The notes below the pieces were generated by a model. That model was not told the DNA's origin and searched no databases. It saw only the letters and a list, made by a program, of their open reading frames with translations. A DNA stretch of 43,069 nucleotides from positions 1 through 43,069 of IMG/VR virus record IMGVR_UViG_3300047297_000112. One strand, 5' to 3'. Numbering within the stretch: the stretch's first letter is position 1; every line of letters begins with the position of its first letter. Below, piece after piece: positions 13,419 through 32,609 of the stretch. Origin of the DNA: a virus. The position numbers were made by a program, and so were the translations under genes.

Positions 13419-16400
13419 ATGGCTGAATTTGATCTCGATGCCTACTTGAACAACAAGTTGGGCAATCCCAATCCAGGAAAGGTTGATGACGTTCTTCGAG
13501 CAAAAGATGCCAAGATTGTTGAGCTACAGCAATTTCGAGAAAACCTGGCCCAGAACACTGACAAAGCTTTGACTGCGCAGACTATTGTCAATGGCCGCAC
13601 TTGGGGCGAGTATGGTAAAGATGTTGCGCTTTCTGCCGTTCAGGGTTTGGACACTTTAGCCAAGCTTCCGGCTATGGCTCTTGACAAAGCTACCGAAGGA
13701 AACTTCTACGGCACTGAAACCCAAAAAATCAGTGCAATGTCAGACGAGCGAGAAAAGCTCAAGTCCGCTTTTGCACAAGCCAAGGGCCAGCAAAAAGCAC
13801 AAGCTGCAAAAGAAGCAGGTGAAGCAGCCAAAGCCTATGTGGGTGAAAGCGCACTGGGAACCGGTGCACAGATTGCTGCTGAGTTTGGTTCAGCTTTCTG
13901 GGAAGCCGCCAAAGATCCTGGCAGTCTTCCTGAGTTCTTGGCTCAACAAGTTGCTCAGCTGGGTGTCATGGGCAAAGTCGGCCGTGCATCAGAGCTGGCA
14001 GCTCAATCTGTTTTGAAAGCAGCTCCTGCTCTTGCAGCTACAAAGGCTGGCCAGGCTGCTGTCAGTCGAGTGGGTACTGCCGGCGCTGTTGGAACCGGTG
14101 CAGTGCTACAGGGTGTTGACGTTGGTTCGGACACCATGTCTCGTATCATGCAATTGCCTGATGGGGTGTGGGGCCAAAACCCTGAGTTTATGGCCCGAGC
14201 CAGTGAGATTGGTGCTCCCGCTGCCAAGCAGGAGATTGCATCTCGTTTGGCTTCTGAGGCAACTATCCAAGGTGCAGCAACTTCGCTACTGTCGGCTGCT
14301 CTGCCTGGTGGTACAGCCATTGAAAAAGCTGTTATGGGCAAATCCTTGGGTGGCATCAAAGCGATCCCCAAAGCGTTTGTGGGGGAAGCTGGACAAGAAG
14401 GCATTGAAGAAGGTACAGGCAAGTTCTTTGGCAATGCAGGCGTCAAGCAAATTGACTCGACTCAAGCGCTGTCTGAAGGCGTTGGTGCTGCAGCCGGTCA
14501 AGGTGCTTTCTTAGGAGGCGCTTTAGGCGGCGGCATCAATGGTGTGCAAACAGGCTTGAATGCGCTTGGCAACATTGGTTTGGAAAAACGTGAAAAAGAA
14601 GCCACTCGCTCAGAGGCCGTTAAAGCCGCGATCGAGTCAGGTAATGTCAGTGCCTTGGTTGATCCCAAAAACCCTGTCTATGCCCCAGATCAGGCCATTG
14701 CTGCACTGTTCGGCAACAGTCAGAAAGAAGGCACCACACCGGAAGGCAAGCAAGCCAATCTGGAACAAGCCTCCAAAATCATTTCTGACTTGGAAAGCCA
14801 ACGCACAAAAGCTGAGCAAGCCTACGCTACGGTATCCCCAGAAGGAATTGCGCAGTATCAAAATCAGCTTGCTGAAGCAGACCTGGCTGGCAATAAGGAA
14901 CTGGCTACGTTGTTGAAAGAGCAGCTTGCTGATGCCACCAAAGATACAAAATCGGCTGAACGGTTACAAAACCAAATCAACCGAATTGACGGTCAACTGA
15001 CTCGTGCCCGAGAAGTTCTGACTGCATTCAATCAACAAAACCAGTCTACCGACTTTGATGTTGACGCTGAAGTTGCCAAGATCACTCCTGCTGATCCTGT
15101 GGCTTCACAAGATGCTGCAAGCCGCATCATCAATTTGTCGATGGCCATCCCTGAGCGCCTGAATGCAACTGTGGCTGACTCTTTGGCTGCTGATAGTTCT
15201 AACGGCTTGTCGGAAAGCCAACGCACGTATTTGCGAACATTCTCTCAAGCCCGTATTGCAGAGAACTCATTGAAAGACATGGGCAAAGTCTCAAAGGAGA
15301 TTTACTCAGGCTCTGCTCCAAATGCCCCTGGCATCAAATACATTGGTTTGACAAACTACCGTTCCAATGTGACTGCAGCCCTGGCTGCTGGCAATCAATC
15401 AGCGGCAGACAATCAGTTGGGCATGTTGACTCGGTTTGAGGCCAATCACCAGAACAAAGCACAAGCTGCTTCGGAAGCATTGAGCGCATTTCAGCAAGAC
15501 GGCATTGATCGCCGCATTGTCCGTAATGCAAACGGAGACTGGTCTATTGAGCAAGGCCTGTGGGCTGACAATAAACAACGTGTGTTGAATGGTGGATTGA
15601 ACATCAACAACAACGCTGAAAAATTGGTTGCAGACACTCAGACTGAAGCAGAAGCAATCTTTAAGACTGCTGCTGAGTTGAAGGCTGCGTATGCAGTAAA
15701 GTTTGGTTCAACTAATGTCGTTGGAGCCAGCAATGTCCAGAACGTATCGCAAGCATCCGAAGGAATTCAGGGGACCAAAGAGAAGCTTCCAGCCGAAGCC
15801 TCGCAAGAAATTGGAACCACTGAATCAAGTGCAACTGCAAGAACCGATGGTGTTGCAGCAACGGTTGGAGGTGAGCCTCCGGCCTCTTCTGTGAAGACTG
15901 TTGCAGATGCTCCAGTTCAAGAGCAACAGCAGTCTACTGAGAGTACCAGCGATGAGACTGAACAGGCAACAGAGACTGTTGGTCTTACAGCACTCCAAGA
16001 AAAATCCCCGGAGGGGACTTCACACGATCAGAAAAAACTGGGTGATTTTTTTACCCAGTCGGTGGGTAAAGAAACTGACGGCTCCAAGCGTCCTTTGGTT
16101 GCTGTCAAAAACTTCATGTCAGCCGTCGCTGCTGGCACAGTCAAGATTGGCCAGTACATCAAAGACCAGAACTTGGGCGAAGGCTCCAAGCCAATGGCTT
16201 GGGCAAAGTTTGTTGAGAAGGCTGCAGCCTGGGCACCGATCATTACCCGCAATCTGAAAACCGGAGTAGATCAACGGTTTCACTATCTGAACCCGATTTT
16301 GTTGATGCAGGTGTTAAGTGCCGAAGGAAAATCAACAGCTGAGATTGAAGAGAACGTCAAGACAGCGATTGCTGCTGCAGTGTTTGGCTACACTGCTGAC

Positions 16401-19400
16401 CAGGCAGGCCGACCAGAGCTCAACGATGACAAAGCCATCAACGGCATTCTGGGTCGAAGCAAAGATTCGCCTGTCAGTCCAGATGCCAAGGAGCTGCTTG
16501 CCAATGTCGGTGTTTACCAGTCTCAAGTGATCGACTCTCTTGGCTCGGCTGTGATGGATGCGCTGGGCTTGAAACTGAACCCAAATGCTTCTCAAGACAT
16601 GCTGGCCAAGATGCGTGTATCTTTGGGTGGGCATGCATTGAAGCTGATGGAAGACACTGGTTTGTTGGTTCGCAGCGACATGACCAATGGTGAGATGAAC
16701 CGCCTTCGCAGCGAGAACCTGTTTGAAGACAGCGAATCTGGAAACCAAACCAATGAGGCGGTTTCCTTTTCGGACAGCATCAAAGGGCACATCTTCTTCA
16801 AACTGGCTCGAGACAAAGCAGGTGAACCTGCCGGTGCAGCCAAAGAAATTGCCGATGCAATCAAAGGCTCTCAGAGTTTGATTCAGAATCTGTTTGGCAT
16901 TGAGTCGAGCATTGCATTCCCAAGCCTTACTCCAGCAAAGGGCCTGCAGAAAGAGTCTGACACTGGCATGGGCTTGCCTGGCTTCATGAAGAAAGTCTTC
17001 AAGCTGAACCAGTCTCGTCCTTGGAAAGTCAACAAGGATCCACTGACTGTGCTGAGCTTCTTCTCTGAAGAAGAAGGCATGGCCATGGCCGGCATTGAAG
17101 ACTCGAGCGAGCACACTCACCGACGCAACTTCAACAGCAAGCGTGCCAAGAACGATGGCCTGAGCCGCGAGTTTCGCAACTTTATGGAGTTTGTTGGAGA
17201 GCTGGCTACCAGTGAGAAGAAACTGGATCAGGAGTTCTACCTGAACCAGGAAATGTGGAAGCAGCAGCGTTCTGGCTATAAGTCCACCACTGTCAATCCC
17301 AACACCAGCAAGATCGTTCGTTGGCTCGTGGCTCCTGACAGCTGGAGTACCGAGATCAAGTTGAACGATGAGGCACAGTTGCAGTCCTTTATGCTGCGTG
17401 CATCGGAAGGCTTTGGCATCAAGCCAGAGAAAGCAGACAGTCAAAAGGCTGTCGATGATCTGGCCAAAGTGATGCAAGACCCAACGATGCAAGCTGCAGT
17501 CAAAGCATTGCAGGCTGTGTTGTTTTCAAAGGATGCTCAGCTGTCCGAACAGCAACGCATGGCCATCATGGAAGCGGTGACGGCCGGCAAACAGAAGCTG
17601 CATACCTTGGCCTCGTTGATTGCCTATGCACGCTACCAGCAAGCTGTGGACACCAATGCAGAAAGCTTCACTACCAATCTTATGGGTGAAGTGGACGGTG
17701 TGTCTAACGGATCGATCCTGAACTCGATCATGTACGGTGCTGCTGCCACTGCAGAGCAACTGAACACGCTGCTGGAGAAAGGCGGTATCTACACGCTGGG
17801 CAGCAAGTTCAACCAGTACAACCTCTGGAGAGGTACGCCTGGTCATCAGGACATCTACGAGTCCAACGCTCAGGACTTGCACACCTACGTCAACTCGATG
17901 CCCGAGAGCACTAGAGTTGTGACAGCTGCGATCTGGAATACTGCTGGTTCTCCGATCAACGCTGCACAGGAAGCAACGAAAGACGGCCGTGATTTGTTGA
18001 AGGGGCCGATCAACCCGCTGAACTATGGCGGGGGCTTTAAGAGCATCATCGGCAAGATGGCCTACAACTACGTGGACACCATCTACGAGAAACTCGAAGG
18101 CTTTTCACGCAAAGGCGCTGACCAGGCTACTGTCTACGAGTTCGTTCGCAATGTGAACGTGCTGCTTGCTGCTGGCCGTGCACCTCAAATGCCAATCGGC
18201 AAACCTATTGCCTACTACTTGGGCTACACGCTGTCCAAGGCACAGGAAGCTGCACTACGTAAAGCCTACTCCGAGACGATTGGCGTGGCTGCAAAGGAAG
18301 TGGTGGGAACCAACTTCAAGCCATTCCTGGATAGAAGCAAGCTGGTGACGCAGACCGTCAACCTGACTTATGGTTTGTACGAGGCGATCTACAACGCTTC
18401 TCGTGAAGCGATGATTAAGGAGATGGGCATCCCGATGAAGAGCGGTGAGCCCATTCACGATCTAACCGTGGCTCAGGAAGTGGAACTGACTGAACGCCTG
18501 AAAGACATCCTGCCTGTGATGCACACGGTGATGTCCAAGGACGAAGGCTTTGTCGAGAACGGCATCTTGCTGGCCAAGAAAACCCGCAAGCAGAACAACG
18601 CTGCACCGTACAAGGTGGTGGTGGGTTTTGGTTCGAAGCTGAAGAACGATGCCAGCCAACTGACTGCATCCGGTCGATCTACAGTACAGACCGATCCTGG
18701 TGTGATCGCCATCTCTGGTACGACGCATGCGTTGGACAGTGCTGTCTCCCATGCAGTGCAGGAAGCCAACCATGTTTTGAACAACCACGATGCTGTGGGT
18801 GCTGGCATCAATGTGCTGGGCGAGTCTGCTCAGTTGCTGAACAAGAACACCTGGTCCAAGACGCTTAACTACTCTCCGTTGAACGAAGCTCACGATGCAC
18901 TGATGCGTGTGGTTCAAGGCATTGTTGCCATGGATCAGCGTGGTGAGTTGACGCCTGAGATGAAGGCAGCGATCAAGGACAAGCTCAAGGAGCTGTCCAA
19001 GAAGAATCGTGGCAGCAAAGTCGAGTCCATTGTGGACACCACTGCGTTCAACATCTTCAACGAAGCCCTGGAAGCCAACCGCATCAAGTTTGGTGCGATG
19101 GCTCAATGGGTTGTGGTGGATCAGTACGCCATGGACGGTGGCAGCTACCAAGTCACGGATGCCGATCGTCAGGAAGCCCAGAGCCGGCTGGATGCGCTAA
19201 GCCCTGTCCGTGCAGAAGCTGATCTGCAAGCCCTGAATGCGCTGGCTTCTTCTTTGTTTGGCTCAGGAGCCGTGAGCGCCGCGCCGGTTGCACCGGCAGC
19301 GGCTGCTCCCAAGGCGACTGTGACCAGTTTGTTTGGTGCAGTAGGTACGCCTGCTATTGCCAGCGACCAGGATCTGGTCGAGTTCTTTGAGACCACGCCG

Positions 19401-22400
19401 GAAGCTTCTGCAGCACAGGTTATCAAGCTGCTGGGTGCAGAAGGGCGGATGAATGTTATCAACCGCAAGATTCTGCAGTTGGTTTCTCGAGTGGTCAGCC
19501 CTGATCTAAAGATTAAGTTCGTGACCTCTGAGACGGCACCGAGCATGGTGCTTGAGAAACCCACGACCAATGCCCGTGGCTGGTTTGTGATCAAGGATGG
19601 CCAGGAAGAGATTTATGTCTTGAGCCCTGAGTTCGTGAACTCTGGCTTGACGGCCGAGACGTTGCTCCACGAGCTGGTGCACGCTGCCGTGGCTCGTGTG
19701 ATTGACCAGCCGTCCAAAGACGCTCAGGAGCTAGTGGCCGAGCTTGAAGCACTCCGAGTTAAGGCCCAGGAGTACGCAACAGCCAATGGCTTGACCCAGT
19801 ACGTGCCTGCTTTGGCCAACGTGCAAGAGTTCGTGGCTTGGGGCATGAGCAACCTGGGTCTGCAGCGTGATGTGCTGACAAAAATCACAATGCCATCCAA
19901 GACAGGCTCAAACCGTCTAATCAACGGCATGCAGAAGTTTATCTCTGCACTGACCGGTCTGTTGTTCAAGAAGCCTGATGCCAACATTGACAATGGCCTG
20001 GCTGTGCTGGTCAGCAATGTGTCAGGTTTGTTCTTTGAAGCATCCCAGGTCACCGCCCGTACCGAGATCAATTTGAATCTCGCTCAAGAAACTGTTGAGC
20101 CAATTGACGCTTACACGACCTTGGACATCCACCAGGCGCTCGATAACGGCACGCTGGAGCCCGACTTTAAGGATCACCTGGCCAACCTTCTGGGTGGCAT
20201 CGTTCAGCGCCTCCACGGCCCGTATGGTGCGTTTGCTGCGGCCATGCGCAAGACCGAGGCTGGCAACCCTCTGGCGGTATGGCTGAAAGCCTTGGAAACA
20301 GGTCAGGCACCGTTTGCCTCAAAGATCGTGGCATCGGGATTTGCAGGGTCTGCTCAGGAAGACTTTGCGATGCAACAGGTAGAAGCTACTGTAAAGGCCG
20401 CATTGGATGGCAACGAGTCTTTGACCAAGATTGCTTACAAGCAATTGTCCGACCTTTACACCGAGGTCAAAGGCAAGCTGAAGCCGTCTGACTTTAAGTC
20501 CCAAGCAGACTATGATTTTGTCTTCAAGCTAGAGAGCGATAACGGCGATCGCTCTGATTACCTGGCTCGATTTGCTGCTCTGGGTCTGGCCAATCAGCAA
20601 TTCAATAGCATGTTGAAAATGGCCACTGAGCGAGATACTCGTCGGTTTGGTGAAGGCCAAACTTTCACTCAGCGTCTTGAGAACATCTTTGAAAAGATTG
20701 TGGCTTTCTTCAATGAAAAAGTCACCAAGACTTATGCAGGCCAAAATGCTGATGAAAAGCTTGAAGCTTTCGTCGGTCAGTTGGTAGACATTGAAGCTAA
20801 GAAGCGACATGCAATCAAACGCAAAGCAACACGCACCAACTACTTGGCTCCGGTAGAAGAGGGTGCCAAGAAAGCAACTGATGCCATTCGTTCTAAGGTA
20901 GGTGACCTTGCGGGTTCAGCGTTTGTGCGCAACAACAGTTTTGCTGTGGTTCGTGCTGCAGGCGGGTTGGCCCGTACTGTGGCAAATGATCAAGTAGAGT
21001 TCTTCCTAGATGGTTTGCAGCGTTTGAGAGACAAAGAGTTCACTGGCCGACAAGGTGTTGTTGCTGGTTTGCTGACTGACTTAAAAGGGCCGTTGGCGCA
21101 CTTTGCTGCGCTGCTACGTGAAACAAAACGCCATGAAGGTGAACGCAAAGCCATTATTTCTCAGCATGCCAAGCTGGCGCTGAGCACGTTCTTGAATGGC
21201 AAAGACCTCAGTGCAGAAGCTAAAGCCAGCATCACGTCAGTGTTCATGCGGACGGGTATGCATAACCTGCTTGAGTCAATGGGCTTGGCTGATCTGGAAA
21301 AGTTGGTTGGCGATCCTGTTGAGTTGAACAAAGCAATTGCTGCTGTGGAAAGTCAACTGACTGGAAAGCTCAAAGACCGCTACATTGAACAAGCTAATGC
21401 GTTGGGTTTCTACAAAGCAACCGGTAAGTCTCGCAATCCTGTTTTGATGCTGAACGCTTACCTGATTGCTCGAATGGCCGGTACTCAGTTCAAAAAGCAA
21501 GTGACTGAACAAGAAGCCAAACAAGTTGAGGCAACCATTGCTTCACTGGTTTCGTTGTACGCCTTGAAATACACCAGCGTTCAAGACCTGGCTCAAGCCA
21601 AGCAGGTGTTCCGTTCTGAGAACATTCGCACTGACGGCAACGGAGTAGAGTTTGTACTGAAGCTGCACAAGCAAATGGAAGCTGAATCGTTGGAGCGTTT
21701 GTTTAAAGGTAATCCTGCTTTGATGATTCACGGCTACACGCCTGAAATCTTAAATCCGCACACCGCTATTGCAATTGCTGATGAAGCAGAGGGCGCAAAC
21801 CTGGAAGCCCAAGGTTATTCCAAAGGAGCCAAGGTCACGCAAGATGCTGCTGATCCTGACAAGACCAGCAAGCGCATCTACGTGTTGCGGGATGGTGGCT
21901 TGATGTCATACTTGACTGGAGTGTTTTCTTTGAATGGCTTGCAAGCCAAAGGCACAAAGAAGCAAAACGGCTATGTAAATGTCACTACACAAGCAGGCCT
22001 GAACAACGCAAGCCTGCAAGCAGACATCACCAATGCCAAGCTGCAGTCATTGCAAGGCAAGAACGATCCTCGCCGTGATCTGTCTCAGCAGTCTGGCAAT
22101 TACCTGGTGCCTGTGTTCAACGAGATGGGTGAAATTGTGAATTGGCGTTACATGATGGCCGAAAGCACAAAAGATACATTGCTGGAACGAGACAACCGCT
22201 TTGAGAACATTCTGGGTGTGTTGGCTGGCTCGATTTATGACAAAGAAACTACGCAACAGCAAAACCTGAAAGCAGTTGAAGTGTTGCTAGAGCAATTCAA
22301 TTCTGAGTACGCAACACGCAGTGATTCTTACATTGAGATTGGTGAGCGTAGTGCCGATCCTGAAATGCAAGCCATTTGGAATCTGTTGCCAGAGGCCACA

Positions 22401-23552
22401 AAACGTGATGTACGAAAGGTCTGGGGACGCAACGGCATGAAAGTCCGTAGTGATGCTTTGGACTTGATGTTTGGATACCGCAAGTTGTCTGCAGCTGAGT
22501 TCTTGAGAAACGATCCTGAGACTCTTCAAGGTGTGCAGAAAATCATGCGTGAATGGTTTAACACCTACGCACGTTCACGAGGTATGGATGAACAAGAGGC
22601 CGACAACTATGCCAAGCGTCTTGGCTTGGCTTTGACCAAAGGCGAGCGTGCATGGCAGGAAATTGTTCGGGAAGCCAAGGACCTCATTGTGGTCAAAACA
22701 GGTGTAGTGATGTTGGGCAACATCTGGTCGAACATCTCGTTGTTGGCTATGTCTGGTGTGCCATTGAAAGACATGCTGCACCACCACTTGGTGGCAATGA
22801 AAGGCGCAACTGCATATCAACGAGACAGCGAGCGTTTGGCACAATTACAAACAGTGCTTGAGGTAGGCTACAACGCAAACGATGCACAACAGATTCAAGA
22901 CGAAATCGTTCGATTGAAAGACGCCATTGCGCGTAACCCTGTGCGTGAATTGATTAAAGCCGGCTTAATGCCAACCATCGTAGAAGATGTTGCGGCCGAA
23001 GAAGACATCTACTCATACAAAAATGCTTTGGCACGGAAGGCAGAACGCTTTACCAACCAGTTGAACCCTACGATCAAAGCGGTTGGACGAGTGGCCTACA
23101 TGTCTCACGACACCAAGATGTATCAATCGCTGAGTCGTATCACGCAGCTGTCTGATTTCGTGGCTCGATACACCCTGTACCAACACCTGACGACGCGCAG
23201 CAACAACCCGTTGAGCCAAGCAGATGCAATCCAGGAAGCTTCTGATGCGTTTGTGAATTACGACATTCCAATGCATCGTGGAATTCAGTTCACTGATGAC
23301 ATGGGTTTTACGCCGTTCACTAAATATTTCTTGCGCATTCAACGTGTGCTGTTGAAGCTGGCTCGTGAAAACCCTGCTCGAGTATTGATGGCAATTGGTT
23401 TGAATAGCTACATGGACTTAGGCCCCATCGTGTTAGAGAGCTCATTCACACACCACATTGGAAACAATCCGTTGCGGTCGGGCGCATTCCAGTTCCCTGG
23501 AGCGCTAGATGATCTGGCCACAGTCAACGCTGCAATGGCGGTGTTGAAGTAA
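13419..23552 (+). CDS. Giant virion-associated RNA polymerase (N4 vRNAP-type) with HExxH domain
   Basis: A 3,377-residue polyvalent virion protein, injected with the DNA in N4-type phages to transcribe early genes. The polymerase core lies at about residues 860-1930. Motif A is VDGVSNGSI with catalytic Asp1426. Motif B is R1524-x3-K1528-x7-Y1536-G. Motif C is NNHDAVG with His1790 and Asp1791, preceded by THALDSAVSH. A TxxGR-like element (WKQQRSG, Arg1284) is degenerate. Spacings (142, 102 and 263 residues) are close to those I recall for N4 mini-vRNAP. The N-terminal third is Ala/Gly-rich with a glycine-rich hydrophobic stretch (about 354-380). After an Ala/Pro linker (about 1945-1972) comes an HExxH zinc-peptidase-like motif (His2084, Glu2085, His2088; possible third ligand Glu2137). 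The C-terminal 1,100 residues are helical and unassigned; in N4 this part serves encapsidation. Confidence 0.9.
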   Translation: MAEFDLDAYLNNKLGNPNPGKVDDVLRAKDAKIVELQQFRENLAQNTDKALTAQTIVNGRTWGEYGKDVALSAVQGLDTLAKLPAMALDKATEGNFYGTETQKISAMSDEREKLKSAFAQAKGQQKAQAAKEAGEAAKAYVGESALGTGAQIAAEFGSAFWEAAKDPGSLPEFLAQQVAQLGVMGKVGRASELAAQSVLKAAPALAATKAGQAAVSRVGTAGAVGTGAVLQGVDVGSDTMSRIMQLPDGVWGQNPEFMARASEIGAPAAKQEIASRLASEATIQGAATSLLSAALPGGTAIEKAVMGKSLGGIKAIPKAFVGEAGQEGIEEGTGKFFGNAGVKQIDSTQALSEGVGAAAGQGAFLGGALGGGINGVQTGLNALGNIGLEKREKEATRSEAVKAAIESGNVSALVDPKNPVYAPDQAIAALFGNSQKEGTTPEGKQANLEQASKIISDLESQRTKAEQAYATVSPEGIAQYQNQLAEADLAGNKELATLLKEQLADATKDTKSAERLQNQINRIDGQLTRAREVLTAFNQQNQSTDFDVDAEVAKITPADPVASQDAASRIINLSMAIPERLNATVADSLAADSSNGLSESQRTYLRTFSQARIAENSLKDMGKVSKEIYSGSAPNAPGIKYIGLTNYRSNVTAALAAGNQSAADNQLGMLTRFEANHQNKAQAASEALSAFQQDGIDRRIVRNANGDWSIEQGLWADNKQRVLNGGLNINNNAEKLVADTQTEAEAIFKTAAELKAAYAVKFGSTNVVGASNVQNVSQASEGIQGTKEKLPAEASQEIGTTESSATARTDGVAATVGGEPPASSVKTVADAPVQEQQQSTESTSDETEQATETVGLTALQEKSPEGTSHDQKKLGDFFTQSVGKETDGSKRPLVAVKNFMSAVAAGTVKIGQYIKDQNLGEGSKPMAWAKFVEKAAAWAPIITRNLKTGVDQRFHYLNPILLMQVLSAEGKSTAEIEENVKTAIAAAVFGYTADQAGRPELNDDKAINGILGRSKDSPVSPDAKELLANVGVYQSQVIDSLGSAVMDALGLKLNPNASQDMLAKMRVSLGGHALKLMEDTGLLVRSDMTNGEMNRLRSENLFEDSESGNQTNEAVSFSDSIKGHIFFKLARDKAGEPAGAAKEIADAIKGSQSLIQNLFGIESSIAFPSLTPAKGLQKESDTGMGLPGFMKKVFKLNQSRPWKVNKDPLTVLSFFSEEEGMAMAGIEDSSEHTHRRNFNSKRAKNDGLSREFRNFMEFVGELATSEKKLDQEFYLNQEMWKQQRSGYKSTTVNPNTSKIVRWLVAPDSWSTEIKLNDEAQLQSFMLRASEGFGIKPEKADSQKAVDDLAKVMQDPTMQAAVKALQAVLFSKDAQLSEQQRMAIMEAVTAGKQKLHTLASLIAYARYQQAVDTNAESFTTNLMGEVDGVSNGSILNSIMYGAAATAEQLNTLLEKGGIYTLGSKFNQYNLWRGTPGHQDIYESNAQDLHTYVNSMPESTRVVTAAIWNTAGSPINAAQEATKDGRDLLKGPINPLNYGGGFKSIIGKMAYNYVDTIYEKLEGFSRKGADQATVYEFVRNVNVLLAAGRAPQMPIGKPIAYYLGYTLSKAQEAALRKAYSETIGVAAKEVVGTNFKPFLDRSKLVTQTVNLTYGLYEAIYNASREAMIKEMGIPMKSGEPIHDLTVAQEVELTERLKDILPVMHTVMSKDEGFVENGILLAKKTRKQNNAAPYKVVVGFGSKLKNDASQLTASGRSTVQTDPGVIAISGTTHALDSAVSHAVQEANHVLNNHDAVGAGINVLGESAQLLNKNTWSKTLNYSPLNEAHDALMRVVQGIVAMDQRGELTPEMKAAIKDKLKELSKKNRGSKVESIVDTTAFNIFNEALEANRIKFGAMAQWVVVDQYAMDGGSYQVTDADRQEAQSRLDALSPVRAEADLQALNALASSLFGSGAVSAAPVAPAAAAPKATVTSLFGAVGTPAIASDQDLVEFFETTPEASAAQVIKLLGAEGRMNVINRKILQLVSRVVSPDLKIKFVTSETAPSMVLEKPTTNARGWFVIKDGQEEIYVLSPEFVNSGLTAETLLHELVHAAVARVIDQPSKDAQELVAELEALRVKAQEYATANGLTQYVPALANVQEFVAWGMSNLGLQRDVLTKITMPSKTGSNRLINGMQKFISALTGLLFKKPDANIDNGLAVLVSNVSGLFFEASQVTARTEINLNLAQETVEPIDAYTTLDIHQALDNGTLEPDFKDHLANLLGGIVQRLHGPYGAFAAAMRKTEAGNPLAVWLKALETGQAPFASKIVASGFAGSAQEDFAMQQVEATVKAALDGNESLTKIAYKQLSDLYTEVKGKLKPSDFKSQADYDFVFKLESDNGDRSDYLARFAALGLANQQFNSMLKMATERDTRRFGEGQTFTQRLENIFEKIVAFFNEKVTKTYAGQNADEKLEAFVGQLVDIEAKKRHAIKRKATRTNYLAPVEEGAKKATDAIRSKVGDLAGSAFVRNNSFAVVRAAGGLARTVANDQVEFFLDGLQRLRDKEFTGRQGVVAGLLTDLKGPLAHFAALLRETKRHEGERKAIISQHAKLALSTFLNGKDLSAEAKASITSVFMRTGMHNLLESMGLADLEKLVGDPVELNKAIAAVESQLTGKLKDRYIEQANALGFYKATGKSRNPVLMLNAYLIARMAGTQFKKQVTEQEAKQVEATIASLVSLYALKYTSVQDLAQAKQVFRSENIRTDGNGVEFVLKLHKQMEAESLERLFKGNPALMIHGYTPEILNPHTAIAIADEAEGANLEAQGYSKGAKVTQDAADPDKTSKRIYVLRDGGLMSYLTGVFSLNGLQAKGTKKQNGYVNVTTQAGLNNASLQADITNAKLQSLQGKNDPRRDLSQQSGNYLVPVFNEMGEIVNWRYMMAESTKDTLLERDNRFENILGVLAGSIYDKETTQQQNLKAVEVLLEQFNSEYATRSDSYIEIGERSADPEMQAIWNLLPEATKRDVRKVWGRNGMKVRSDALDLMFGYRKLSAAEFLRNDPETLQGVQKIMREWFNTYARSRGMDEQEADNYAKRLGLALTKGERAWQEIVREAKDLIVVKTGVVMLGNIWSNISLLAMSGVPLKDMLHHHLVAMKGATAYQRDSERLAQLQTVLEVGYNANDAQQIQDEIVRLKDAIARNPVRELIKAGLMPTIVEDVAAEEDIYSYKNALARKAERFTNQLNPTIKAVGRVAYMSHDTKMYQSLSRITQLSDFVARYTLYQHLTTRSNNPLSQADAIQEASDAFVNYDIPMHRGIQFTDDMGFTPFTKYFLRIQRVLLKLARENPARVLMAIGLNSYMDLGPIVLESSFTHHIGNNPLRSGAFQFPGALDDLATVNAAMAVLK

Positions 23553-23585
23553 AAGAAAAGCCCCTGTCTCGAAAGAGCAGGGGCT
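23551..23585 (-). terminator. Minus-strand intrinsic terminator (end of RNA region)
   Basis: Stem AGCCCCTG (23559-23566) with CAGGGGCT (23578-23585), extended inside by CTC/GAG around a GAAA (plus sense) loop. Read on the minus strand, the stem is followed by TTTTCTTTT; on the plus strand there is no T-run. The stop signal therefore points leftward, ending transcripts that cross 23586-24211. Confidence 0.8.
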
Positions 23586-23600
23586 CTGTGATGGCACACC

Positions 23601-23798
23601 ATCATTGAAACGTACTGGGCTTGATTCCAGTTTAGCAACCCACTAGCCGTTGCCGCCGATTGGATGGGCGTCCCCAGGGCCAACTCCATTTTTCTATAAG
23701 CACCTTCGCAGGGCAACCGCCGGGGGGCCACTCCCGCGCTACCTTGAATGTTTCTGCATCGTGCCTAGCGTGTCCATCCACGCCGACGTTTCAATGAT
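23601..23798. repeat. Perfect 12-nt long-range inverted repeat
   Basis: ATCATTGAAACG at 23601-23612 is exactly complementary to CGTTTCAATGAT at 23787-23798. The arms are 174 nt apart and would close a domain holding the GC-rich part of the structured region. Confidence 0.85.
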
Positions 23799-23800
23799 AG

Positions 23801-23945
23801 TTCCCGTCTCTCCGGGATGTCACACGAATGTTCTTGTGCTGTTGCTTGCCCAAGGGGTTAGTGCACTACCCTTGCGACTCACACTGGTTGATCGTGTATA
23901 ACCGCTGCTCGTTGATGTTTGGTTTCTGTCTCTCCAGAATGTCAC
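23801..23945. repeat. Two copies of a covarying hairpin module
   Basis: Copy 1 is at 23801-23823 and copy 2 at 23923-23945. Each has a 5-bp stem, an identical TCTCTC loop (GAGAGA on the minus strand) and an identical TGTCAC flank. The stems are TCCCG/CGGGA and TTCTG/CAGAA. The only four differences in 23 positions form two compensated C-G to T-A pair changes. Confidence 0.85.
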
Positions 23946-24077
23946 GCCGTTCTGCTGGACTTCTGCACTCCAGGCGTTCTCATGTCGCAATTACTCGCAA
24001 TCCAGCTTGGGCGGCACCTCGCATCTTGGGCCGACAATTCACAAGCCAAGGCTTGCAAGAGAAATAAGTTGATGTCG

Positions 24078-24148
24078 CTATCAAGAAAGCAGCCTGTCCC
24101 TTTAACCACATCTCCAAAGAGTTGTAATTCAGGCCGCTTACTTGATAG
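24078..24148. repeat. Long imperfect hairpin in the structured region
   Basis: Left arm 24078-24096 and right arm 24130-24148 pair as CTATCAAG/CTTGATAG, AAGC/GCTT and GCCTG/CAGGC. They are separated only by the single mismatches A24086-A24140 and A24091-C24135. The 33-nt apical part contains a further small CTC/GAG hairpin. Confidence 0.8.
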
Positions 24149-24211
24149 TCATCCCTTACGGGGATGAATCGGACTGCCAGATTTTATAGCCTTCCTGCAG
24201 TCAATGCCAGG

Positions 24212-24517
24212 CTATTGCTTGATGAGAATTTCCTCAAGAGTCCCACCCTTCTCAAGGTGATTCTGAACCCATTGGGGTTTACTTCCTCGACCGGACCAGA
24301 AGTTGGAGCCGGATTGATACTTCATAGCAACCTTGGGCCTATTGGAAATAGGCTTTGGGGGCTCACCAAAAGTTAGGTCTCTGGAACGAATGCCAAAAAT
24401 TTTTATCTTGGTGTTGATGTCTTCAATTGCAGCGGTTCGAGCTTTGCTGAGTAAAGTGTCTCTTTCTTTTTGCAAAGCGTCGATTTGCTTTTGAAGCTCA
24501 TCTAGCTGGTTTGCCAT
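24212..24517 (-). CDS. H-NS-like nucleoid/xenogeneic silencer protein
   Basis: A 101-residue protein with the two-part H-NS layout. The N-terminus is a coiled-coil oligomerisation helix (LDELQKQIDALQKERDTLL). The C-terminus is an AT-hook-like DNA-binding motif (FWSGRGSKPQWVQNHLEKGG), which matches the WSGRGRKPKW signature of H-NS/MvaT-type proteins, with a Phe-Trp start. Such phage proteins can bind AT-rich DNA, act as decoys for, or mix with, host H-NS. The start at ATG 24517 is preferred because of AGAG about 6 bases upstream and because it gives the normal length. An in-frame ATG at 24649 would add 44 charged residues but overlaps the next gene. It is the last gene of the minus cluster, and the structured RNA region follows its stop. 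Confidence 0.85.
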   Translation of the reverse strand: MANQLDELQKQIDALQKERDTLLSKARTAAIEDINTKIKIFGIRSRDLTFGEPPKPISNRPKVAMKYQSGSNFWSGRGSKPQWVQNHLEKGGTLEEILIKQ

Positions 24518-24557
24518 GGGTATCTCTTTTGATTTGGGTGGCTTGTCAAAAAGTTCC

Positions 24558-24788
24558 TCAAGAGCTTTCTTGGGTTCTTCTTTCCTCGCCTTTTGACGGG
24601 CTTGTTGGTACTGATTCGTGCTCACAGTATTCCTTGATACAGAGGGCAATCATTGCGATGACAGCTGCGCCCAACAGGATTGCTCCTGATGCAGCAACAA
24701 GTGCTGAAATGAGCGCACCTCCGATCAATAGTACAGCGAGAACGAGGATTGCGGCTAGTGTGTAGCCGATTCCTTTAAGCACGCCCAT
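24558..24788 (-). CDS. Small two-helix membrane protein (holin-like or unknown)
   Basis: A 76-residue protein with two closely spaced hydrophobic stretches (residues about 9-30 and 33-50, Ala/Leu/Ile/Val-rich with Gly) and a charged, Ser/Glu/Lys-rich C-terminal tail. There is no cleavable signal peptide. The topology would fit a small class II holin-like protein or another inner-membrane protein, but no endolysin or spanin gene is near, so I do not name it a holin. It overlaps the possible N-terminal extension of the H-NS-like gene in another frame. The upstream Shine-Dalgarno is poor (GGGGG close to the ATG), which leaves the start uncertain. Confidence 0.55.
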   Translation of the reverse strand: MGVLKGIGYTLAAILVLAVLLIGGALISALVAASGAILLGAAVIAMIALCIKEYCEHESVPTSPSKGEERRTQESS

Positions 24789-26877: not shown

Positions 26878-27609
26878 TCAAGCGAACAAGCTGGTCGTTG
26901 GCTTCTTGGCTGCTGCAGGGGCTCCTGCGGCTTTTGGTGCACCAGCAGTGCCAGCAGCACCTTTGGCTTTGTTCTTCACAGTGCCAGTGAACTTGGCATC
27001 CCAAGTGTCAATAAAACCGGCAGTTTCAGCTTGAGCACGAATCTCAGCAGTCGTCATGCGGTCTTTGGCACGGAAGAGTTTGTCGATCTCGTTTTCGTCA
27101 CGAGTTTCGCCAGTGGCTTCGTAGACACCAGCTTCGTTTTTCTTGGTCTTATCGACCGTCTGACGAATGACGCCCACAATGATTTCCTTGCCCAGCAAGT
27201 CCATCAGCATTTCGACTTTGGTCGGCACTTCAGACTTGGCTTCGGCCGAGTACACGTTCACCACTTTGGTTTCAGTTTCCAGCTCAGAAATCTCTTTGCC
27301 ACAAGTCAACAGAGCCAAGCTGTTGGCATGGTTAAAACCCGGCAGGTAGAACTTCTCGCCGTCTTTTTCGTAGTAGTTCTTGCAGCCTTTGGCTGTACCA
27401 GAAGTCATCCACAAGGTTTGACGAATTTCACGATTGGCTTCGGTCTTCATGTTCAAGACCAGGCCAATTGCACCACCAGCAGATTTGGTCACATAGGCCA
27501 AAGCAATAGTGGATTTGTACAAGCCGGAGTCCAGAGGACCGCCGGAACCAACCGAGTCTTTTTCTTCGGTGACAGATGAATCGGTAGAAAGGGTAGCGAG
27601 CAGAGACAT
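26878..27609 (-). CDS. Single-stranded DNA-binding protein (putative phage SSB)
   Basis: A 243-residue protein expected to coat ssDNA in replication and recombination. Residues about 25-180 follow a pattern I associate with podovirus SSB-like proteins: GLYKSTIALAYVTKSAGGA, IRQTLWMTSGTAKG, YLPGFNHANSLALL, VPTKVEMLMDLLGK, TGETRDENEIDKLF. An OB-type fold is likely, though no single diagnostic motif proves it. The C-terminal tail is Ala/Gly/Pro/Lys-rich and ends PTTSLFA, in place of the acidic tip of bacterial SSB, and a related tail occurs in the 111-residue protein nearby. It lies between the RecA-like ATPase and a terminator. Two 11-bp direct repeats lie just upstream. An unrelated structural role is unlikely. 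Confidence 0.7.
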   Translation of the reverse strand: MSLLATLSTDSSVTEEKDSVGSGGPLDSGLYKSTIALAYVTKSAGGAIGLVLNMKTEANREIRQTLWMTSGTAKGCKNYYEKDGEKFYLPGFNHANSLALLTCGKEISELETETKVVNVYSAEAKSEVPTKVEMLMDLLGKEIIVGVIRQTVDKTKKNEAGVYEATGETRDENEIDKLFRAKDRMTTAEIRAQAETAGFIDTWDAKFTGTVKNKAKGAAGTAGAPKAAGAPAAAKKPTTSLFA

Positions 27610-27623
27610 GATTGTTTCTTTCA

Positions 27624-27652
27624 GTTTTGGTTAAAGGTTTGGTTTTGGTTAA
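27624..27652. repeat. Two 11-bp direct repeats upstream of the SSB gene
   Basis: GTTTTGGTTAA occurs at 27624-27634 and again at 27642-27652, 18 bp apart, in the 49-bp gap between the RecA-like gene stop and the SSB start. It could be an operator or an SSB autoregulation site. No matching promoter is clear. Confidence 0.5.
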
Positions 27653-27658
27653 CTATGC

Positions 27659-28384
27659 TTACGCATAGTAGTCTTTGAGTCGGTCAAGGACCAACTGGAT
27701 ATTGTTGTCGATAAAAGTCTCCTTTGTTTCGAACAACCCAAGAGGACCACGCAGACGTTCATTGACCGTCTCTTTGGTGATCTTTGTCTGGAAGACATAC
27801 TTGAAGCCAAGCGCCTCCTCTTCAGGAGTTACAGTGAGAAGATCAGATCCGTAATCCTTCAGTGCCTTAAGGGCCACTTTCTTTGATGCAATCACAACAG
27901 TGAAGTAAGACTCCAAGCCGTTGTTTTTTAAGGAGCCCTTCACAGGAACCTTGGTTTCCATCAACATCTCAGACTCGTTCAGAGTGTCAGAGGTGTGCGC
28001 AGTAAAAATGATTCTCTTGGTAGAGCGAGCCACGTACTGCTGCATCAGCGCTTTGAAGTACTGAGCGAACTGGCCCCAGGCTTGCATGCCGTTGCTGGAA
28101 TTCAGCACGTACAGGCTTTCGTACATGTCAAGCAGGTAGGTCAGGCTGTCGATGATGATGGTGTGGATCTGAGGTTGTGTCTCAGCCCAGTCGAATGCCT
28201 CGTTAATCTGAAGCGGGTCAGTAACCGTTTTCTGAATAAACTTGGCTCTGAATGGAAGTCGTTTGCCGGCTTCACAGTTCAGATACAGAACGCCTTCTGG
28301 GTCTTTAAGGCCCATCAGCGAAGATGATTTGCCAGTGGCAGATTTGCCGCATAGCAAGACCAGATGGTCATTGGTGTCAGACAT
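27659..28384 (-). CDS. RecA-like ATPase (Sak4-type recombinase family)
   Basis: A 241-residue ATPase with Walker A GKSATGKS (residues 13-20) and Walker B TIIIDS (Asp79). The compact size and single RecA-like core fit the Sak4-type phage recombination ATPases, which are commonly next to an SSB gene, as here. Expected role: single-strand annealing or strand exchange during recombination-dependent replication, on ssDNA coated by the neighbouring SSB. The start at 28384 is chosen because CAAGGAAAACC just precedes it, the same ribosome site as in the 25136 gene. The longer frame up to 28435 lacks one. The ATPase fold is firm; the Sak4 label is inferred. Confidence 0.85.
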   Translation of the reverse strand: MSDTNDHLVLLCGKSATGKSSSLMGLKDPEGVLYLNCEAGKRLPFRAKFIQKTVTDPLQINEAFDWAETQPQIHTIIIDSLTYLLDMYESLYVLNSSNGMQAWGQFAQYFKALMQQYVARSTKRIIFTAHTSDTLNESEMLMETKVPVKGSLKNNGLESYFTVVIASKKVALKALKDYGSDLLTVTPEEEALGFKYVFQTKITKETVNERLRGPLGLFETKETFIDNNIQLVLDRLKDYYA

Positions 28385-28440
28385 GGTTTTCCTTGAGTGG
28401 TTTTCCGCAGGAGCGCCGGAGAGCGCATTCCGCAAGAAGA

Positions 28441-28992
28441 TCAGTTGTCGAACCAGAAGACGATGCGTTGATCGCTATCAGGTACGTCTGAAGTTAAATG
28501 GCCAAGCATGTTTTCCAAGCAAGTGAAGTGGTGACTAATTGCTTCTGCTTCTTCGCTAGGACTGATCAACTGCTGTGCTTTCAAAAGCCTAAGCTCTTCC
28601 AGCTTTGCTTTGAGCTCTTCACGAGTACGATAGCCTTCGCTGTGTGCATCACCGCCCCAAGCTTCAAACACGCGACGAACTTCTGGTGAAGCATCATCTG
28701 GAAATTTGATGCGTTCTTTGAAAGACCAGCCAAAAACATGTCTGACTTGCTGAAGCAATCCAAACTTCCAGTAGTCTCTACTGCCGTGAGGAAAGTCGGC
28801 CATATCTGGGTGATTGTCTTCGTCTTCAAGAAGCTGAAACGAGTCGGCTTGATCGCACTTCCAGATACCATTCTTTTTGGTTTCTGAGTGCCAATGGATG
28901 TCGCATCCCATAATTTCTACTTTCTGAATTGAAGTCCCATAGACAAGCGCATCAAGTAGATGGTCACTATGGGACTTGTTGCTTTTGATCAT
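28441..28992 (-). CDS. MGCDIH-type phage protein (unknown function)
   Basis: A 183-residue protein containing MGCDIHWHSETKKNG at residues 28-42. This is the usual N-terminus of a widespread phage family whose role is unknown (MGCDIHxxxExxxxGxW). The middle contains GSRDYWKFGLLQQVR and FEAWGGDAHSEGY. The 5' end offers two starts: ATG 28992, which forms an ATGA overlap with the stop of the helicase-primase gene, and ATG 28911, the family start. The first adds 27 residues, possibly a coupling leader. The Cys and His of MGCDIHWH could bind metal, but no enzyme activity is known to me. It lies between two replication genes. Confidence 0.75.
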   Translation of the reverse strand: MIKSNKSHSDHLLDALVYGTSIQKVEIMGCDIHWHSETKKNGIWKCDQADSFQLLEDEDNHPDMADFPHGSRDYWKFGLLQQVRHVFGWSFKERIKFPDDASPEVRRVFEAWGGDAHSEGYRTREELKAKLEELRLLKAQQLISPSEEAEAISHHFTCLENMLGHLTSDVPDSDQRIVFWFDN

Positions 28993-31130
28993 CGCTTTGA
29001 AATGGCTTTGGCTACTGTGATCATGATGGTGCTCATCACTTCGGCTTCGTCCAATTTGTCAGCAATTTTGTTGTTCAGCGTCATGACTCGCTGGCGGATG
29101 TTTTCGAAATCGAAACCACCATCCAGAAGAATCATTGCGTAGCGCAACAGCATGTTGTTACGGTTGCCGTCACCGATGTTGTTGATCACCCAGCGCTCCA
29201 GGTTGTCCATGGATTGCTGTGAGTTCATCAGCTCTTTGCGCTCTTCGTTCTTACTGGTTTTCGGAATAAAGGGCAAAGCGTCCAGCACATCCCCTTCGTT
29301 GTACTCATAAGTGCCGTCATGAGACAGCCACTTGCGTGCACGTTGGTTGGTTGCTGTGTCCACTTCGAATGGAAGCCACTCGTAGATGTTAGACATGAAC
29401 TCTTTGTAGTCCTTGGCATCCATACTCAACTCGTAGTTGATAGGCAGGATGATTCGGAATCGGTTCTCGTCTTCGGTATGGCGTTTGGTTGTGTAGATCA
29501 AGAATTTGTAGTTCTTCATCAACAACTTAACCGTGCTCATGTTGACGCCGCCATCAACGTCAATCACCACCAGATTGAAACCTGGAATACAGTTTTCTTC
29601 GTTGCGATAGCCTCCATTCAAATGGTGCGCAACCCAATGCAAGCCAGGAGCTTGTGTGAGTTGATGCAGCTTTTCAAACGGTGCATGCTCGTTGCGGTAG
29701 TCTGTTGTGATGTCGGTGCTGTAGCTCAACACCATCTTGGAAAGATCGGTCTCTTTTAGTGTCTCGCCCCGAAGGAACTCGATACCGTCTGAGAAAGACT
29801 TTTTGATGATGATGTTGTTCTTGTAGCCATAGGCAATTGCTAAAGACAGCATCTCAGTCTTTTGGCCTGTAGCACCACGATAGAACGGCAAGTCCTCAAC
29901 CAAGTCAGCTTGGGTAACATCGCGTTTGCAAGTCGCAATGTACTTAGCCAGCTTGACGTAAGGCCGATCACGAGTGAGCAGTTTGTTGAAAGCGTTGCCT
30001 GACTCTTCAGCCAATTTGATGGCTTGGTACAGATGTTCTTGGGTCAACTCTGGCGAGTCGTCAATGAAGGCATAAGCGCCGGCCAACTTCAAGGCTTTGA
30101 AGTATCGGTGAGAGATCTCAGCTTTCTTGATCTCTTCGTGCTCAGGGTAAAGCTCAGCTTCACGCTCACACTTTAGGCGGTATTCGATCAACAGCAAGCT
30201 GGTGTCCTTGCTGACAATCAAACGCTTGTTGACGTTGATGATGTCGGCCAAGGCTTCCAGCTTGTCAGACAGTTCATCCAGGTACTGGTTGCTGTCTTGG
30301 TTTGTCAACTGCACGTACACCTCTTCAGGTGTCATGTCGGTAGACTTGTTAGATGCACGGCTGTAGCCAAAGAAGCAACGACGTGCATAGCCAGTTTCGA
30401 GCATGGAGTACAGCTCTTCTTCGGTCTTGCTGCCGTTGAGCAGTTTGGCTGGTGTGCCAAACAGCATCATGTTGGTCGGAGTGCGGCCAACAATTTCTTC
30501 GTTACGAATGCTGTCAGCTGTGTTCTTGATTAGCTTCTGCTTGACCAAGCCTACGTCGTACAGCTCAAGGAAGGTGTTCAGGATCTCAACGTTGCCGACA
30601 AGGTTGGAGCCGATTTCGTCGATCTGCAGGTTCATAGAGCCTGCATCGGCCATCAGCAACTTGTGACGCATCTGCTTGACTGCAGGTGCTGTACCTGAGT
30701 CAAAGCTGAACATCAGTGAACCGAGGCTGTCGAATTCCTTCTGCACACGCACTAACTCTTCATCGGGATCAGTGCTTTTGCGGTTGGCTCGTTTTAAAGC
30801 CAGCTTGGGCAAATTTTGCTCAGCCAGAATCGGAAACGTCTCTTCAAGAAAACGTCCTCGAAATTGGTTGATGACAGAGTTCTCAATGATGTTGGTTGAG
30901 AAGCCTTTGCCGGAACCTGATGTGCTCAGATTCAGTGCATACATGTTGACTGGGATGTCACCCCGATCGTGTGTAGCAATGGTGGTTCGCATCATGGATG
31001 CAACCAGGCTGAAGTAGTAACCAACCAACACACGGAAGAACAGTGGGTTGCTGTTCTGAGTTTTGCTACACAGAATGCTGACCAGTTTTTCTGAAGCTGG
31101 GTGGTACTCCATTTCGTCAAATGATTTCAT
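28989..31130 (-). CDS. Helicase-primase with C-terminal AEP primase domain
   Basis: A 713-residue replication protein. The N-terminal half has a P-loop-like STSGSGKGFS (residues 69-78), Walker B LQIDE (Asp171, Glu172) and a MLFGTPAKLL sensor-like element, consistent with a DUF3987-type or related helicase ATPase. The C-terminal part carries archaeo-eukaryotic primase motifs: VVIDVDGG (Asp524, Asp526), YTTKRHT (His551), NRFRIILP, and a later acidic residue (Asp591). It would unwind DNA and make primers at the fork. The order, helicase first and primase second, is the reverse of T7 gp4. The Walker A lacks the usual Ser/Thr directly after Lys (it is GKG). No separate DNA polymerase is in the window. 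The primase motifs are clear; the helicase family is less certain. Confidence 0.85.
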   Translation of the reverse strand: MKSFDEMEYHPASEKLVSILCSKTQNSNPLFFRVLVGYYFSLVASMMRTTIATHDRGDIPVNMYALNLSTSGSGKGFSTNIIENSVINQFRGRFLEETFPILAEQNLPKLALKRANRKSTDPDEELVRVQKEFDSLGSLMFSFDSGTAPAVKQMRHKLLMADAGSMNLQIDEIGSNLVGNVEILNTFLELYDVGLVKQKLIKNTADSIRNEEIVGRTPTNMMLFGTPAKLLNGSKTEEELYSMLETGYARRCFFGYSRASNKSTDMTPEEVYVQLTNQDSNQYLDELSDKLEALADIINVNKRLIVSKDTSLLLIEYRLKCEREAELYPEHEEIKKAEISHRYFKALKLAGAYAFIDDSPELTQEHLYQAIKLAEESGNAFNKLLTRDRPYVKLAKYIATCKRDVTQADLVEDLPFYRGATGQKTEMLSLAIAYGYKNNIIIKKSFSDGIEFLRGETLKETDLSKMVLSYSTDITTDYRNEHAPFEKLHQLTQAPGLHWVAHHLNGGYRNEENCIPGFNLVVIDVDGGVNMSTVKLLMKNYKFLIYTTKRHTEDENRFRIILPINYELSMDAKDYKEFMSNIYEWLPFEVDTATNQRARKWLSHDGTYEYNEGDVLDALPFIPKTSKNEERKELMNSQQSMDNLERWVINNIGDGNRNNMLLRYAMILLDGGFDFENIRQRVMTLNNKIADKLDEAEVMSTIMITVAKAISKR

Positions 31131-31146
31131 AAAGGTCTTTCTTGGT

Positions 31147-32136
31147 TCAAAGGATCAGATCGCCTGCTGCAACCAGAGCGTCTTTTTGAGTACATGCAAT
31201 GAATGCTGGGCAATACTTGCATGCAGTGACTTGACCAGGAACCTCTTTGACAATGCCGACATTGCCGTCTTCGTGTAAACGAATCATGGCGTCTTGCATC
31301 GTGTCAAAGTTCTTGGTGCTGCGTGCAGTTTTTTCTGGGTTCTTGTAGTACTTGAACTGGGGCTCACTGCGCCACAACTCATCGTCATCGCACTGAGGAA
31401 TTTCTTCTTCAGGCGCATTCCAGTACTGTTCGATCAATGCCAGCTTCTTGCGAATGAAGGCTTCTGTTTCGTTGAGAGACAGCAGATCAAATGACTGGGT
31501 GTGAAAGCGCTTTGGCGGATAGCTTGGATCGGTCTTGGCCATCGCACCTTTCCAGTCAGTAAAGATGTAGTGAATGTCCATGCGATCCTGATGAATCTTG
31601 ACTGGATCAAGCCAGCGATAGATGCTGCCTTGCTGGGTGTACTTGTCGGCACCGTTTTGCTTCTTGTAAGTGAAAGTGCTGGTGGACTTGAAGTCCTGAA
31701 CCTTACCTTCACTAATGAAGTCAAACTTGCCTGTGATTTTCCATTTGCCTAGTTGACGGCTCAGCCGTTGTTCCAAGTAAATAGGAATCAGGTCGGTAGT
31801 CGAATTCAGCAACTCGTCGGATGGGTTGATGGCTACACGGTCAATGACTCGCTGAGGCAAGCCAATGGCCTCCATGGCTTGACGATAGTTGCCCATCCAG
31901 GCTTTCTCGATGCCATCATGAATGGCTGTACCCATACGGCTGTTCATCATGTCTGCCAAGTTCACTAAGCCTTCGCCAGGTGGAATACGGTTTGGCAGAA
32001 TGATCTGTCGAAGTGGCTTCAGCAGCGTGGTGGCACTGACAGTGAATGGGTCGCTGTCATGATCATAGTGATCGGTGGCAAGGAATACAGCCAAAGCCAA
32101 TGGAACTTCGGATACGTTTGCATAAATGGCGGACAT
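31147..32136 (-). CDS. Cas4/RecB-like PD-(D/E)XK nuclease with Cys cluster
   Basis: A 329-residue exonuclease-type protein. The nuclease core shows the motif series of the RecB/Cas4 group: His73 (GTAIHDGIE), Glu122, Asp139 (GKFDF), the VQDFKST motif with Asp148 and Lys150, and a QxxxY motif (Gln169, Tyr173). Cys249 and the C-terminal CKYCPAFIAC group (Cys306, Cys309, Cys315) could hold a [4Fe-4S] cluster as in Cas4 and AddB. Likely role: 5'-3' or dual-direction resection to feed the neighbouring RecA-like ATPase and SSB. The start at 32136 follows AAAGG. No CRISPR array is present, so Cas4 resemblance does not mean a CRISPR function. Confidence 0.85.
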   Translation of the reverse strand: MSAIYANVSEVPLALAVFLATDHYDHDSDPFTVSATTLLKPLRQIILPNRIPPGEGLVNLADMMNSRMGTAIHDGIEKAWMGNYRQAMEAIGLPQRVIDRVAINPSDELLNSTTDLIPIYLEQRLSRQLGKWKITGKFDFISEGKVQDFKSTSTFTYKKQNGADKYTQQGSIYRWLDPVKIHQDRMDIHYIFTDWKGAMAKTDPSYPPKRFHTQSFDLLSLNETEAFIRKKLALIEQYWNAPEEEIPQCDDDELWRSEPQFKYYKNPEKTARSTKNFDTMQDAMIRLHEDGNVGIVKEVPGQVTACKYCPAFIACTQKDALVAAGDLIL

Positions 32137-32181
32137 AGGGGCCTTTGTTGGTTTATCGAGAAAGCGGACGGAGCCGCATGG

Positions 32182-32541: not shown

Positions 32542-32560
32542 GTCTTTCCTTTGTAAAGAA

Positions 32561-32609
32561 GAAGAGCCTCAGGATTTGAGGCTCTTCACATAAACCCCCG
32601 GAGGGGTTT
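32561..32609 (-). terminator. Two consecutive hairpins after the RNR gene
   Basis: Hairpin 1: AAACCCC (32592-32598) with GGGGTTT (32603-32609), loop CGGA. Hairpin 2: GAAGAGCCTC (32561-32570) with GAGGCTCTTC (32578-32587), 7-base loop, followed on the minus strand by TTCTTTAC. Together they can stop or slow minus transcription leaving the RNR gene. Confidence 0.75.

Follow-up and report, generated by a model that had tools for sequence, protein, structure and literature searches.

Phages steer host transcription with short RNAs, such as the put sites of phage HK022, and they also carry large RNAs whose role is unknown. The early-operon leader is the position at which phage lambda has nutL. The putRNA of HK022 is a phage antiterminator RNA composed of two stem-loops, and putL is found at the early-leader position (PMC9378689). 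GOLLD and ROOL are large, ornate phage-associated RNAs (PMC12286853).

The locus described here lies in a 43,069-nt viral DNA (IMG/VR record IMGVR_UViG_3300047297_000112, the whole of which is referred to as the window), between the convergent genes for a virion RNA polymerase (vRNAP) and an H-NS-like protein. Its minus strand almost certainly encodes a structured non-coding RNA, probably the untranslated tail of the operon whose last protein gene is the H-NS-like one. Two copies of a short element shared by unrelated phages, R1, lie within it.

Genomic Context and Fold

The vRNAP gene has tblastn matches in 462 phage records, the best of which are annotated as virion RNA polymerase. No relative of the H-NS-like protein was found among viral contigs, and the whole region used as a DNA query gave no match in phage records. 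The gap between the two genes (23553-24211, 659 bases) is gene-free. The first-pass annotation had seen no believable protein in it, and indeed no open reading frame of the region is conserved at full length in 14 relatives, in which three neighboring genes are kept. Partial tblastn matches of the region in relatives fall in several frames and on both strands simultaneously, as expected from DNA conservation. The window contains no tRNA or tmRNA, and the relatives L002 and L188 likewise have no tRNAs. Elsewhere on the minus strand, positions 24558-24788 encode a 76-aa hydrophobic protein after a gp47-like gene; in N4 a 55-aa unannotated hydrophobic ORF has the corresponding position, and the two are likely the same small membrane gene.

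The minus strand of the region folds with a z-score of -3.60, with none of 20 shuffles equally good (-4.3 in a repeat run), and the plus strand with a z-score of -2.8. Six 659-nt control stretches antisense to the vRNAP gene reach -0.3 to -3.1, so the fold z-score by itself is only moderately diagnostic. The decisive evidence is covariation.

Table 1. Features of the locus (window coordinates)
Feature	Position	Strand	Observation
vRNAP gene	13419-23552	+	Convergent with the RNA
H-NS-like gene	24212-24649	-	PF00816, Pfam E 1.1e-8; final protein-coding gene of the minus-strand operon, upstream of the RNA
H-type pseudoknot	24172-24215	-	Both stems form in 11/11 sequences with differing stem sequences
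Pseudoknot stem 1, AUAGCCU/AGGCUAU	24209-24215 with 24186-24192	-
Pseudoknot stem 2, GACUGC/GCAGUC	24197-24202 with 24172-24177	-
Pseudoknot A-rich loop 3, AAAAUCUG	24178-24185	-
Hairpin CAUCCCCGUAAGGGAUG, invariant core CCCGUAAGG	24150-24166	-	Paired 100% in 8 distinct sequences
Long stem (24130-24148 with 24078-24096)	24078-24148	-	Encloses a variable inner domain
Cassette M6, with R1 copy 1	23917-24041	-	Kept in 11 distinct aligned sequences; helix B occurs in several versions
R1 copy 1, helix A AACGCC...GGCGU, inner stem CUGGA/UCCAG	23944-23978	-
R1 copy 1, GACA, helix B UUCUG-GAGAGA-CAGAA, ACC	23921-23943	-
Cassette M7, with R1 copy 2	23795-23916	-	Also present in 4 relatives
R1 copy 2, helix A ACACG/CGUGU	about 23893-23897 with 23822-23826	-
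R1 copy 2, GACA, helix B UCCCG-GAGAGA-CGGGA, ACU	23799-23821	-
Terminal domain	23592-23798	-	Closed by 13-nt helix (23786-23798 with 23601-23613); inner hairpins
Intrinsic terminator, hairpin AGCCCC..GGGGCU then UUUUCUUUU	about 23551-23585	-	Same hairpin in L002

Every structural element listed in the first-pass annotation is present on the minus strand, including the long stem with mismatches, the perfect long-range pair, the small hairpins, the two covarying hairpins, and the terminator with its T-run in the minus direction. An alignment of relatives, analyzed for covariation as that annotation had proposed, has compensatory changes in the long stem, the CCCGUAAGG hairpin, and the pseudoknot. 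In the CAUCCCCGUAAGGGAUG hairpin, double changes occur at four of the six pairs. The long stem has 94% of its cells paired, double changes in 9 of 19 pairs, and one mismatch that is fixed in the alignment, and the sequence inside it differs among relatives. Jointly, hairpin and long stem have 95.5% of cells paired and 33 double-change cells, versus 10.7 in shuffles, and their pairing collapses when the alignment is slid by one column.

The pseudoknot has a loop, AUAAAAU, that is invariant among 11 sequences, and the first arm of its stem 1 overlaps the H-NS-like stop codon (24212-24214). The first-pass annotation had noted a minus-strand TATAAAAT box here (about 24181-24188), which could be read as a promoter. 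These bases are instead the 3′ arm of pseudoknot stem 1 together with the A-rich loop, and promoter-like sites at this place number 2, against 0.8 expected by chance. Because the -10-like box sits in a conserved pseudoknot that overlaps the H-NS-like stop codon, co-transcription of the RNA with the H-NS-like operon is at least as likely as independent transcription. Of the proposed minus-strand non-coding RNA, the large structured RNA is upheld by the covariation, a strand-specific shared element, and the terminator, while the independent gene with its own promoter is not.

Cassette Organization and Relatives

Relatives of the array were collected with a conserved-core pattern (12 contigs) and a pseudoknot/hairpin pattern (12 contigs, three of them new). 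The nearest contig, L002, has 89% protein identity to the window in the C-terminal part of the vRNAP and a shorter array. Placed side by side, the relatives carry the same cassettes in different combinations, forming a mosaic in which cassette assignment and order were read by eye and are unscored. The recurring modules are the pseudoknot, the long stem, a module with two T-arm-like loops (GGTTCGATTCC), a ATCAAGCAAGCCACTG/CAGTGGCTTGCTTGAT-bounded module, two modules that end in R1, and the terminal stem. Long stems of 13-19 bp bound the cassettes. The first-pass annotation had missed this cassette array.

The terminal domain of the window is closed by the perfect long-range pair mentioned above, which spans 12-13 nt (ATCATTGAAACGT). 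The fill of this domain is seen in this phage only, and its position matches that of the closing stem in relatives. The final bases of the terminator touch the end of the convergent vRNAP gene. Two relatives, L264 and L265, hold only the pseudoknot module and a short stem in an RNA of about 150 nt, and R1 is absent from both; in relatives of complete size, R1 is found in this array only. T-arm-like and tRNA-like pieces occur in L188, L262, and N4, and the T-arm pieces of L188 and L262 are degenerate.

A structured non-coding RNA of 0.4-1.3 kb is present at a comparable place in other members of the N4 family (Schitoviridae), namely N4 (~1.3 kb, with four tRNAs, T-arm-like pieces, and long helices), phCDa (1.0 kb), and LUZ7 (0.4 kb). 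The fold z-scores of these three arrays are -4.2 to -7.6. In all three and in the window, the long structured non-coding stretch follows gp46/gp47-type genes and is close to the vRNAP gene. Despite having long RNA arrays, N4, LUZ7, and phCDa lack R1.

The N4 stretch of ~1.3 kb lies between gp47 and gp48 (L251 7300-8600; N4 record 32299-33599) and is unannotated in the collection. Along with its four tRNAs, it has one or more tRNA-like pieces with a CCA end, and its long helices surround small domains. In Stenotrophomonas phage Pokken (L219 2957-5560), an N4-family phage that carries R1, ~2.4 kb of mostly structured non-coding RNA is interleaved with five tRNAs and also includes long-range helices and tRNA-like fragments.

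The R1 Element

The two covarying hairpins of the first-pass annotation, which have unlike stems and an identical GAGAGA loop, are both copies of a phage-wide element that the annotation had not recognized. R1 is about 49 nt long and consists of helix A, the linker GACA, a 5-bp helix B with loop GARAGA, and a terminal AMC. An exact search of viral contigs with the pattern GTGACA N4 GGAGAGAC N4 AMC returned at least 120 stretches, whereas the same pattern reversed letter by letter returned 1 match. Helix B is fully complementary in 104 of the 108 distinct matches listed, versus 2% expected by chance, the four N-N pairs being unconstrained by the pattern. For the loop variant GGAAAGAC (at least 120 stretches), it is fully complementary in 104 of the 112 distinct matches listed. 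An earlier, shorter motif pattern gave mostly chance matches and was useful only after a helix-complementarity filter.

A covariance model of R1 was built from 27 phage loci, none from this phage group, and contains 10 pairs in two helices. In its alignment, 99.3% of cells are paired and double changes number 41, versus 9.5 in shuffled alignments; the unpaired bases are invariant. Because the window hairpins supplied the search pattern, and a helix A with a fitting loop length was part of the basis for choosing the 27 loci, neither the loop identity nor the pairing of helix A counts as fully independent evidence. The pairing of helix B does.

Applied to the window, the model finds exactly two sites, both on the minus strand: copy 1 with E 9.5e-10 (23981-23920) and copy 2 with E 2.4e-6 (23846-23798), the next-best site having E 0.73. 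Copy 2 is a poor match to the model's helix A and has a longer-range ACACG/CGUGU pair instead, which is invariant in the five cassette members. Rfam 15 holds no family for the region, its relatives, or the R1 loci; searches of the window, relatives, and R1 loci at the gathering threshold and at E 5 yielded nothing but tRNAs and a single unrelated sRNA family. In the literature searched, mainly open-access, neither R1 nor the array RNA of the N4 family is described. R1 is apparently an undescribed element, and the RNA of the window is most fittingly classed as a variant of structured phage RNA.

Distribution of R1

R1 is present in more than 200 viral contigs from unrelated phages. Its restriction to phages shows in its rarity on chromosomes: it occurs in 3 of 293 genomes, two of which had been chosen for having a match, and a stricter pattern has 23 exact matches in 257 Gb. 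In the annotated phages examined, R1 lies on the same strand as the neighboring genes.

The contexts of R1 recur. Seven loci have it 1-10 nt ahead of a phage tRNA, and Phaeobacter phage MD18 and Microcystis phage Mwe-JY26 have it within their tRNA arrays. It is also found between operon genes, at times after a major head protein gene. It also lies in early-operon leaders beside repressor genes in mEp390, the E. coli 23GD11002 prophage, and Stenotrophomonas phage BUCT708. In Acinetobacter phage Alexa, as in the window, R1 lies at a convergent operon end before a terminator. Where R1 forms arrays of 2-3 copies, neighboring copies are same-stranded in 31 of 32 pairs. Ten arrays, mostly from one subgroup with 50-nt spacing, were tested for their flanking genes; in 8 of them the gene upstream codes for an HTH repressor, and in 4 the gene downstream codes for an early-recombination-type exonuclease. 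The PHROG classes of R1-flanking genes are mixed, which argues against a single regulated gene. A Shine-Dalgarno role of the GGAGAG bases is not general; R1 also precedes tRNAs, and many of its neighbors have a Shine-Dalgarno sequence of their own.

A near-identical R1 leader is shared by an E. coli prophage (L270 2300-2670) and a Stenotrophomonas phage (L269 1240-1830), with three R1-like hairpins at a spacing of 50 nt and more and extra GAGGAAAGACCAACG repeats in the E. coli leader. The sequence GCTGTGTGTAGTCTTGGC, common to the early leaders of mEp390 (L218 2620-2645) and the E. coli prophage (L270 2420-2440), is possibly another leader module. A AAAGCGCATTC ... GAGTGCGCTTT stem module adjoins R1 in unrelated phages (L218 2530-2600, L096, and L016 after a tRNA). 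Directly after R1 in L096 (4646-4744, minus strand) is a tRNA gene ~25 nt over the usual length, which Rfam calls and ARAGORN misses.

Possible Function

R1 most likely functions in cis on long untranslated phage RNA. The RNA of the window opens with the pseudoknot and CCCGUAAGG hairpin, continues through stem-bounded exchangeable cassettes, and ends with the terminator. R1 would be recognized during RNA synthesis, allowing the long untranslated RNA to be completed and to survive, and the likeliest form of this would be a put/nut-like effect on the elongating polymerase, either antitermination or anti-Rho. The early-leader, tRNA-leader, and intergenic positions are best accounted for by an element that sustains either transcription or the transcript. 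The whole explanation, a structured operon-end RNA array in which R1 has a cis role, is a tentative one.

Antitermination would explain why R1 lies in early leaders by repressors, before tRNAs, and between operon genes, and why it comes in 2-3 same-strand copies. It would also explain the presence of R1 in the 650-nt untranslated RNA of the window and its absence from the ~150-nt RNAs of L264 and L265. As a mechanism, however, it is possible but somewhat doubtful. In the window and Alexa, R1 lies just before the terminator, where such a site makes little sense; R1 also occurs between head genes without an obvious nearby promoter, and the long arrays of N4, LUZ7, and phCDa lack it. N4 middle genes are transcribed by a phage single-subunit polymerase, and therefore an element of the host RNA polymerase would not act on them. 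The end-of-operon copies argue against plain antitermination and keep trans-acting and processing readings alive.

Alternatively, R1 could be a protein-binding module and the window RNA a stand-alone trans-acting RNA, in which an RNA-binding protein of the host or the phage is titrated by at least two GARAGA hairpins, as by a CsrB-type sponge or an anti-defense decoy. Rapid cassette exchange would then reflect an arms race. The unpaired bases of R1 are invariant, as would be expected of a binding site, and convergent, terminator-ended RNAs of about 400-650 nt with two R1 copies occur in two unrelated phages, the window and Alexa. The mosaic of cassettes among relatives and the T-arm-like and tRNA-like pieces of L188, L262, and N4 point the same way. 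Single R1 copies between genes and directly before tRNAs are more simply explained by a cis role, and this alternative is on balance unlikely.

R1 as a site of RNA processing or protection has a slightly poorer claim. R1 would be recognized by RNase P, RNase E, or RNase III, or be a self-cleaving motif, and would serve adjacent cassettes, tRNAs, and mRNAs, with the long stems as RNase III substrates that free each cassette. Such a role would suit the 13-19 bp stems that bound the cassettes, the seven loci in which R1 ends 1-10 nt before a tRNA 5′ end, and the AMC 3′ end directly after helix B, which resembles the RCC end of an RNase P substrate. However, the alignment used has either A or C in the middle of AMC, so an RNase P-type RCC is not kept, and R1 is also found in leaders that lack tRNAs.

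It is very improbable that the window is a decayed tRNA array whose structured spacers are functionless leftovers. In its favor, functional tRNAs are present in related N4-family arrays and missing from the window, and the T-arm pieces of L188 and L262 are degenerate; decay would not, however, leave the compensatory changes, invariant pseudoknot loop, and invariant R1 loop bases seen among relatives. Both strands fold better than shuffles, as an artifact of DNA inverted repeats might, but an artifact or a missed protein is scarcely credible given that no ORF is conserved at full length and that R1 is strand-asymmetric and follows the strand of neighboring genes in the annotated phages examined.

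Beyond the preferred cis role, a broader reading is plausible yet uncertain. R1 may be an undescribed class of phage RNA element that acts on a conserved host machine (RNA polymerase, Rho, or an RNase) with no phage protein, used by unrelated phages of Proteobacteria and Cyanobacteria, both temperate and virulent, and built by N4-family phages into a shuffling array of RNA cassettes. R1 is short, sharply defined, strongly covarying, and present in hundreds of phages, and it could reveal a common, protein-free control of long untranslated transcripts. Even the classical model phage N4 holds ~1.3 kb of structured RNA and four tRNAs that are blank in the collection's annotation.

Comparison with Known Systems

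R1 resembles HK022 put in form only, as two neighboring stem-loops present in up to a few copies per genome. In temperate phages, R1 also follows the repressor gene where the early operon starts, like putL and nutL, and its arrays there suggest a place downstream of an early promoter; in the window, R1 instead ends an operon. Unlike put, R1 joins its helices by a 4-nt linker, GACA, has a fixed loop, GARAGA, and ends in AMC, and its locations also include tRNA arrays, operon ends, and the gaps between head genes. Within HK022 27000-32500, a segment that may or may not include the put sites, the R1 model gave no convincing match (13.6 bits in the IS903 stretch). HK022 put was set aside as the identity of R1, the likeness being one of form and, in temperate phages, of position.

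The first-pass annotation had compared the RNA in size with GOLLD and ROOL, and covariance-model searches gave no sign of kinship. Neither GOLLD (RF02032) nor ROOL (RF03087) matched the window or its relatives at the gathering threshold, or the region and L016 at E ≤5. GOLLD and ROOL each have one conserved long fold, whereas the window RNA is an array of exchangeable short cassettes.

The Schitoviridae tRNA arrays of N4 and Pokken differ from the window in having tRNAs, and that of N4 in being without R1. They are like it in the place near the vRNAP gene in N4, the long helices between tRNAs, and the T-arm-like pieces. The window region is a tRNA-less version of the N4-family RNA array near the vRNAP gene.
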